DNA from: Acidimicrobiales bacterium
Lineage (GTDB): Bacteria; Actinomycetota; Acidimicrobiia; Acidimicrobiales; JACCXE01
Assembly (NCBI GenBank): GCA_035546775.1
Contig: DASZWD010000046.1
Span: forward strand, 1-54,450
Direction: 5' to 3'
Length of the DNA stretch: 54,450 bases
Of the stretch, positions 1-9,933 are shown piece after piece; position 1 is the first letter of the stretch, and each line of letters begins with the position of its first letter. Position numbers and translations under genes: made by a program. The notes beneath the pieces were generated by a model. It had not been told where the DNA came from, did not search any database, and was given only the letters and a program-made list of their open reading frames with translations.

Positions 1-1
1 A

Positions 2-1090
2 CTAGTTGACCGGCACGTACCCGTTGGGCGGCAGCTCGTCGGGCACGTTGCCGCCGCGGGCGCGGATCCGGTCGTGCGGCTCGTCGAAGTGCCAGCGGTG
101 GCCTTCGAGATCGCTCGCCTCGTAGCGGCGCGACCCGTACCAGGCGTCCTCCAACTCCATCGTGATCGTCGCGCCCTGGGAGACGGCGTTGGCGTAGTGG
201 GCGTCGATGTCGTCGACGTCGACGTTGATCATCACCGACGCACCGCCCGCTTCCAGCGGGCTCACGATGTGGTGGATGTCCTCGTTGGAGTGACCGATCA
301 TCACGAGCCCGCTGCCGAACTGCAGCCAGGCGAGCATGTGATCGTCGGGCGTCGTGCCGCCGATGCGTGCCTCGCGTCGCTCCTGGAAGCCGAACACCCG
401 CGTGAGCCACTCGAGGGCGGCGTGCTCGTCGCGGTAGGCGAGCCGCGGGTACATGCGCGGGACTTCTGCGGTCGGCATGGTGTTGGTGCCCACGATCGTG
501 GTCATGAGTCGCTCCTTCTGTCGGGTGAAAACGTTGGCGTGCGTAAGGAGTTCGCCGCGGACGGACGCGAGTTCGCGCAATCTTCCGCGTGCCCGGTTGA
601 GGCGCGAGCGCACGGTGCCGACCGGGACGGCCAGCGCCGCCGCGATGTCGTCGTAGCTCAACCCTTCCCAGGCAGAGAGCACGAGCGTGTCGCGTTCGCC
701 GTCGGGCAGCGCTTCGATGGCGGCGCGCACGTCAGGCAGCACCGCCGCGGCGTACAGGGTGTCGGTCACGCGCTCGGCGAGGTCGTTCTCGTCGTCGACA
801 CCCAGGCGAGCCACGGCGCGGTCGCGCCGCACCGCGTTGCGATTGCGCCGGGCGATCAGGTTCGTGGCGATGCCGTAGAGCCAGGGTCGGGCATCGGCGC
901 GGTCCATGTCGAACGAAGCGCGGCGTTCGAAGGCGATGCGGAATACCTCACCGGTCAGGTCGTCGGCGTCGGAAGGGCCGATGCGGCGCACGAGGTAGCG
1001 ATAGACGGTTGTGGCGTGCCGGTCGAACACCGCTCCGAACGCTTCGGGCGTCACCAGCGACGCGGCGATGGTGTCCGCATCGGTGCCCAC
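2..1090 (-). CDS. ECF sigma factor fused in frame to a VOC (glyoxalase-like) domain
   Basis: A 362-residue open frame joins two proteins that are normally separate. Residues about 15-175 are an ECF sigma factor: region 2 contains FDRHATTVYRYLVRR and DADDLTGEVF, region 4 contains LPDGERDTLVLSAWEGLSY and the helix-turn-helix GTVRSRLNRARGRLRE. Residues 196-362 are a VOC-fold protein of the PhnB type (YRDEHAALEWLTRVFGF, then EDAWYGSRRYEASDLEGH). No stop codon separates the halves. An AAGGAG sequence lies 6 nt before the internal ATG at 505, so the VOC part (503-2, 167 residues) may also be made alone. The GTG at 1090 is preceded by CAATAT with a 7-nt gap, suggesting a leaderless transcript. The domain calls are firm; a single functional fusion is uncertain. 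Confidence 0.8.
   Translation of the reverse strand: MGTDADTIAASLVTPEAFGAVFDRHATTVYRYLVRRIGPSDADDLTGEVFRIAFERRASFDMDRADARPWLYGIATNLIARRNRNAVRRDRAVARLGVDDENDLAERVTDTLYAAAVLPDVRAAIEALPDGERDTLVLSAWEGLSYDDIAAALAVPVGTVRSRLNRARGRLRELASVRGELLTHANVFTRQKERLMTTIVGTNTMPTAEVPRMYPRLAYRDEHAALEWLTRVFGFQERREARIGGTTPDDHMLAWLQFGSGLVMIGHSNEDIHHIVSPLEAGGASVMINVDVDDIDAHYANAVSQGATITMELEDAWYGSRRYEASDLEGHRWHFDEPHDRIRARGGNVPDELPPNGYVPVN
512..517 (-). promoter_or_regulatory. Internal Shine-Dalgarno for separate VOC-domain translation
   Basis: On the minus strand AAGGAG sits 6 nt before the internal ATG (505-503). It is among the best ribosome-binding sites in a window where many genes have none, which argues that the VOC domain is also translated independently of the sigma domain. 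Confidence 0.6.
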
Positions 1091-1137
1091 AACAGCGATA
1101 TTGCCCGCAGGGCGTCCGAAGTTCGCACAATGTTCGC

Positions 1138-9198: not shown

Positions 9199-9933
9199 TC
9201 AGGGCTTTGGCGCGGCTGCGAGCCGGGCGAGCGCCTCACGCAACAAGCGCGATACGTGGACCTGGCTGACGCCGATGCGATCCGCGATCTCGGACTGCGT
9301 AAGCCCCTCGAAGTAGCGCAAATACACGATGTTGCGCTCACGCTCGGGCAGCTGCGCCATGAGGGCACGCACCGTCATCCGGGCCTCGACGTCGTTGTAG
9401 CCGGGCTCGTTCTCCGACAGCGCCCGATCGTCGCGGGCTTCGCCGGTCGACGAGTCGGGCGTGGCCAGGGAACCCGGTCGATACGCCGCGCCGGCTTCCA
9501 TCGCCTCGATCACTTCTTCGTCCGAGACCCCGAGGTGCTCGGCGAGTTCGGGCACCGTCGGGCCGCGGCCGAGCGCCGCGTGCAGGTCGGCGACCGCCGG
9601 GCCGATGCGCAGGTGCAGCTCCTTGAGTCCCCGCGGGACCTTGACCGACCAGGTCTTGTCGCGGAAGTGGCGCTTGAGCTCGCCCAGCACCGTTGGCGTG
9701 GCGAAACTCGAGAACGCGGCGCCCTGTTCGGGATCGAATCGCTCGACGGCACCCACCAGCGCCAAATTCGCCACCTGGATGAGGTCTTCGAGCGGTTCAC
9801 CGCGACGGTCGAAGCGACGCGCCAACGCGGCGGCCAGGCCGGCGTAGCGCTCGACGATGCGATTGCGCGCCGCCTGGCTACGGGTACGGGCGAACTCTTC
9901 GAAGAGCGCCGCCTCCTCTTCGGGCTCTGTCAT
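9199..9933 (-). CDS. RNA polymerase sigma factor, SigB/SigF/SigG (general stress) type
   Basis: A 244-residue group-3 sigma factor. Region 2 reads RYAGLAAALARRFDRRGEPL, EDLIQVANLALVGAVERFDP and FSSFATPTVLGELKRHFRD. Region 3 follows from TWSVKVPRGLKELHLRI. Region 4 ends with LPERERNIVYLRYFEGLTQ and SEIADRIGVSQVHVSRLLR. This is the SigB/SigF pattern, controlled by an RsbW-type anti-sigma factor. The ATG at 9933 overlaps the stop of the upstream anti-sigma-like gene as ATGA, so the pair is coupled. A GGGTAC promoter (10346-10371) ahead of the operon suggests positive autoregulation. Confidence 0.92.
   Translation of the reverse strand: MTEPEEEAALFEEFARTRSQAARNRIVERYAGLAAALARRFDRRGEPLEDLIQVANLALVGAVERFDPEQGAAFSSFATPTVLGELKRHFRDKTWSVKVPRGLKELHLRIGPAVADLHAALGRGPTVPELAEHLGVSDEEVIEAMEAGAAYRPGSLATPDSSTGEARDDRALSENEPGYNDVEARMTVRALMAQLPERERNIVYLRYFEGLTQSEIADRIGVSQVHVSRLLREALARLAAAPKP

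Follow-up and report, generated by a model that had tools for sequence, protein, structure and literature searches.

The window, the stretch of 54,450 nucleotides of DNA analysed here, carries at one end a single reading frame that joins an ECF sigma factor to a VOC/glyoxalase domain. This raises the question of whether the two parts act together and what a VOC domain could contribute to a sigma factor. The gene occupies positions 2-1090 on the minus strand, with a GTG start at 1090 and a TAG stop at 4-2, and encodes 362 residues without interruption. The span agrees with the original prediction, in which the strand, actually minus, had not been stated. Pfam placed sigma region 2 (PF04542, Sigma70_r2) at residues 22-87 (positions 830-1027) and sigma region 4 (PF08281, Sigma70_r4_2) at residues 121-171 (578-730). 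With these two regions, no sigma1 or sigma3, and NCBIfam TIGR02937 likewise above its cut-off, the N-terminal part belongs to the ECF sigma factors (group 4 sigma70). Residues 218-335 (86-439) matched PF00903 above the cut-off over profile positions 8-121 of 121, so that the VOC domain is complete, and the paired beta-alpha-beta-beta-beta fold in the structure model and the fold matches places it in the VOC/glyoxalase-bleomycin resistance superfamily. No stop codon lies between the domains, and GC3 is 0.89, of coding type, along the entire frame. The predicted passage from a sigma domain into a full-length VOC domain was therefore borne out.

With its stop codon, the gene reaches the end of the contig. 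The sequence continues in contig C57 (138437-138577), which overlaps window positions 1-141 by 141 bp and carries a convergent MFS transporter gene that ends where the sigma-VOC gene ends. On the other side, a divergent gene on the plus strand (1138-1908) encodes a protein similar to the HODM alpha subunit (haem-dependent N-demethylase). The two genes have a 47-bp intergenic region in common, and co-regulation is possible. A further sigma70 region 4 match was found inside the window at 9220-9378 on the minus strand.

Relatives were sought with a profile of the VOC part, which gave hits in 6 of 397 genomes of the order, in 6 of 395 genomes in a draw from the class, and in one more elsewhere in the phylum. 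An alignment-based scan of assembled contigs yielded 9 loci, several of them from genomes already found; a single-protein query against the same contigs gave zero matches. After removal of duplicates, the family set comprised 14 loci. Ten of these (L048, L049, L051, L052, L054, L056, G145, G004, G038, and G861) have two genes, and four (the window, G000, with G772, G002, and G754) are single-frame fusions. Whether other genomes carry the fusion or two genes thus has a mixed answer, and a stop codon between the domains is not the rule in all relatives. The part that is fused in the window is homologous to a separate gene beside the same sigma factor in the ten two-gene relatives. In nine of them, the start of this second gene and the sigma stop have 4 nt in common (ATGA or GTGA); in L054 they share 1 nt. 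The sigma and VOC parts are adjacent in 14 of 14 loci, which was partly selected for because the search used the VOC part with its leader. No conserved neighbor genes beyond the sigma/VOC pair were seen around the family loci.

The leader is a conserved segment, DDxDxLRxLRPD...KExLMxxI (consensus DDLDPLRRLRPDRV.PDDP..P.VF.REKERLMS.I), with which gene 2 begins in the two-gene loci. The same leader heads gene 2 after related sigma factors of G030 and G168, which have no VOC domain; according to our reading of the sequence, a hydrophobic, membrane-type segment follows where the VOC domain would be. The G168 locus (L082:3157-4856) consists of an ECF sigma gene and an overlapping gene with this leader and segment. 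Such genes resemble those of the CU044_5270 family (NF038083), which also follow a sigma gene and whose products carry, in the place taken by the VOC domain in the sigma-VOC family, a membrane segment and an outer part. The resemblance is graded: gene 2 of G030 matched the CU044_5270 model only weakly, whereas gene 2 of G008, a further sigma relative, is a clear member (E 1e-44). The leader profile gave no match to the N terminus of the G008 protein. Judged by position and layout, the leader-bearing membrane proteins may be anti-sigma factors; we know of no CU044_5270 protein that is a proven one. In the simplest history, such a leader protein seems to have exchanged its membrane and outer parts for a VOC domain.

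To follow the history of the fusion, a tree was built on the sigma and VOC domains, with the linker left out. The window and G772, which comes from another order of the same class, formed a clade with support of 100/99. G772 is a single-frame fusion like that of the window with a homologous linker (THANVFTRQKERLMTTI versus VHADVFTANKERLMTTI), and the junctions of the two compare at 186 versus 189 nt. The fusion in this pair therefore predates its divergence. G002 paired with the two-gene locus G038 (support 97/95). A single clade of all four fusions was rejected (AU p = 0.0145), as was a clade of G000, G772, and G002 (p = 0.005); joining G754 to the window pair was permitted by the test (p = 0.27). 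Because the one-clade topologies were rejected and G002 groups with G038, the fusion arose at least twice, perhaps three times. The junctions differ accordingly in what they retain. In contrast to the two-gene relatives, neither the window nor G772 has the stop/start overlap any longer, and most of the leader is gone from both; in the window, a remnant, ANVFTRQKERLMTTI, is left at residues 185-199 (494-538), and the LRxLRPD part is deleted. The G002 junction is 71 nt shorter than that of G038, and in G754 most of the leader is kept and the frames are brought together. In the window lineage, a deletion would have taken out the overlap and most of the leader, joining two genes into one chain. 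Repeated fusion of neighboring genes usually indicates that their products act together, and its recurrence here supports joint action of the sigma and VOC parts.

A motif with the sequence CGAACY-N13-GGGVAANA was found directly upstream of the sigma start in nearly every locus. In a set of 15 (the 14 family loci and the truncated G055), all 14 defined positions of this motif, P1, were matched in 11 loci, two of them with a spacer of 14. Where the distance was counted, P1 ends 7-8 nt before the start codon. In the window it reads CGAACTTCGGACGCCCTGCGGGCAATA (1099-1125, minus strand), lies within the 47-bp gap, and ends 8 nt before the GTG. We take this geometry to fit an ECF promoter whose transcript is leaderless or nearly so. 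With a weight matrix derived from the P1 sites, the best match within the sigma gene fell in one aligned place in 11 of the 14 loci, at the R-E-L codons near the end of the sigma part. This second copy, P2, is CGAACTCGCGTCCGTCCGCGGCGAACT in the window (549-575, minus strand), where it has 2 mismatches. The R-E-L copy is also present in G168 and G030; in G168, both P1 and P2 have the variant -10 GGACAA in common. The 11 P2 sites scored 11.6-22.7 bits, compared with about 0-10 at other places in these genes, and a background scan predicted 0.07 matches versus the 11 observed. Synonymous shuffles gave p values from 0.0005 to 0.10, the latter for the window, with a Fisher combination of about 1e-13 that is uncorrected for relatedness. 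The Glu of R-E-L is encoded by GAA in 11 of 11 cases, compared with 38 GAA and 129 GAG among the pooled sigma codons. P2 can be read as a second, internal copy of an autoregulatory promoter, and both motifs would be promoters read by the window sigma factor. Exact copies outside the loci were few in 12 genomes, and when the exact motif was used to look for a regulon, mostly the loci themselves and scattered sites with no common gene were returned, so that no regulon emerged.

The position of P2 bears on the proposal, made in the original prediction, that an AAGGAG and an internal ATG at the domain border allow a free VOC protein to be produced from the same frame. Both elements are present: AAGGAG, resembling a Shine-Dalgarno sequence, lies at 517-512 on the minus strand, 6 nt ahead of an in-frame ATG at 505-503 (Met196). 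This ATG is not the ancestral VOC start, as gene 2 of the ten two-gene relatives begins 30-40 codons upstream of the equivalent position, at the GTG or ATG overlapping the sigma stop. The AAGGAG equally represents the codons of Lys192-Glu193 in the leader motif [KR][ED]xL[ML]xxI, which also occurs in the proteins of G030 and G168 without a VOC domain. From codon usage, about 0.5-0.6 of Lys-Glu pairs are expected to read AAGGAG. The hexamer was found in 3 of the 4 fusions and in 6 of the 10 two-gene loci, it is absent from G002, G038, and L056, and L056 also lacks an ATG at that site. Synonymous conservation at the two codons is modest, with Glu ranking 7 of 122 columns. Because the leader motif and codon usage largely explain it, the AAGGAG is no independent evidence for a second start.

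A dual output, a long sigma-VOC protein and a free VOC protein made from a P2 transcript, from ATG505, or from both, would be compatible with the regulatory reading developed below, and we regard it as a tentative proposal. Two products from one frame are possible, and the promoter-like element at the junction lends them unexpected support. P2 is found there in the fused loci too, with shuffle p values of 0.045 in G772, 0.011 in G002, and 0.027 in G754; the weak value of the window itself counts against the proposal. An in-frame GTG or ATG follows P2 by 4 nt in G002 and G754, and the first in-frame start past P2 in the window is ATG505 with its AAGGAG. Wherever the Lys-Glu pair is present, in 9 loci, it is encoded by AAG GAG, which favors a second start; the protein motif accounting for the hexamer, and the loci lacking it, speak against one. 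In four two-gene loci, the -10-like part of P2 (GGGAGA) could instead serve, or double, as the ribosome-binding site of gene 2, which does not explain the GAAC part. An extended form of the proposal is doubtful but can be stated: a single sigma gene, with its own promoter present both upstream and within the codons of the sigma end, would yield a sigma-VOC protein that senses for itself and, as a separate product, a VOC regulator, together forming a built-in feedback circuit.

The nearest solved structure to the VOC domain is TioX (3itw), with a profile E value of 4e-18, the best Foldseek hits, and about 32% identity; the antibiotic-binding proteins ZbmA and TnmS were among the further fold matches. 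In a motif alignment read by eye, the positions of the four metal ligands (His/Glu) of the glyoxalase I type hold Tyr214, Trp255, Met287, and His334; the usual VOC metal-ligand positions thus appear not to be kept, which argues against a metal-dependent enzyme. Ligand binding by the VOC domain is therefore likelier than catalysis. The structure models were good for both domains, and their arrangement was not reliable (pTM 0.45 and 0.44). A MerR-type regulator with a C-terminal VOC domain related to the sigma-linked one was found in G005 (L083:3149-4195, Pfam), and another in G007 (L084:2824-3621, by sequence reading). By analogy, these fusions offer a precedent for VOC as a probable sensor in another regulator class. 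The neighborhood of the sigma/VOC pair of G038 (L036:3188-5534) also contains a free-standing VOC gene and another ECF sigma gene, whose product has a SnoaL-like region at its C terminus (weak Pfam match).

The reading we favor, with a probability of about 0.6, is that of an autoregulated sigma factor controlled in response to a ligand by a soluble VOC partner or a fused VOC domain. In the relatives, the regulator would be a separate soluble protein, composed of the short leader and the VOC domain and made from the gene that overlaps the sigma stop. A small molecule would be bound by the VOC part, which is probably dimeric as in the TioX-type antibiotic-binding proteins, and binding would release or activate the sigma part, which would then use P1 to transcribe its own gene and perhaps P2 to transcribe the VOC part. 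We infer the control of the sigma factor by VOC, the ligand as its signal, and the direction of control. The loss of most of the leader in the window and G772 counts against this reading, as the leader would be the obvious candidate for a sigma-binding element.

Alternatively, the VOC protein could be an effector, drug-binding or detoxifying, that the sigma factor switches on, with the fusion tolerated and not functional. In favor of such a role, TioX, the nearest solved relative, is an antibiotic-binding protein of the self-resistance type. TioX, ZbmA, and TnmS share the fold of the window domain, but they work on their own, binding antibiotics as self-resistance proteins, whereas the window VOC is coupled to a sigma factor. 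An effector, which we consider unlikely, is disfavored by the occurrence of the same leader in membrane proteins linked to sigma factors, by the strict adjacency of the two genes, by a stop/start overlap of the kind that couples partners, and by the repeated fusion to the sigma factor itself. A sequencing or assembly error, or a recent pseudogene of domains that are normally separate, could be suspected from the two-gene majority and the gene terminating at the contig end, but is hardly credible, as G772 of another order shares the fusion and its linker, the window junction is 68 nt shorter than that of L048, beyond any 1-nt error, the coding composition is intact, and G002 and G754 were fused independently. 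The shared linker rules out an assembly error around the window junction; the G754 fusion alone could stem from a small sequence error, and the other three could not.

The regulatory reading can be compared with known ECF systems. In ECF41, an ECF sigma2-sigma4 core carries a C-terminal small-molecule-type domain in place of a separate anti-sigma factor (PMC3426412 and, in the part consulted, PMC8999054). The parallel drawn in the original prediction holds for this layout, which the window shares with the SigJ/SigI-type proteins and their fused SnoaL domain. It does not hold for the origin: the window extension is VOC and not SnoaL, and it stems from an overlapping downstream regulator, which relatives still encode as a gene of its own. 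No SnoaL match was obtained in the fusion frame with Pfam, and WLPEP, the ECF41 motif in the sigma2-sigma4 linker (PMC3426412), is absent from the window fusion protein. Membership in ECF41 was therefore rejected. Some ECF extensions seem to be derived from translational fusion with an anti-sigma factor, according to the part of PMC8999054 consulted. ECF48/52/53 and IutY of ECF243 resemble the window in that a regulator gene is joined to the sigma gene. Their extensions are membrane-bound, whereas the fused part of the window is soluble. The extensions named in the same part of PMC8999054 are SnoaL, TPR, cysteine-rich, and membrane types; the window fold is not among them, and the review nowhere uses the word "glyoxalase". 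No report of a VOC-fused ECF sigma factor was found in the literature searched, and a numbered ECF group may already include one.

VOC is thus an apparently unreported sensory fold for ECF sigma factors. As one system exists naturally in fused and unfused versions, the way in which a fused domain controls a sigma factor can be tested directly, and the promoter copy conserved within coding sequence is an unusual feedback layout that can be tested. The sigma factor and its compact promoter could serve as a ligand-responsive switch. Within the family, a likely series is visible, from a membrane regulator to a soluble regulator with the same leader and on to the fusion. If the regulatory reading is true, ECF sigma factors controlled through a VOC domain would represent a new sensory type.
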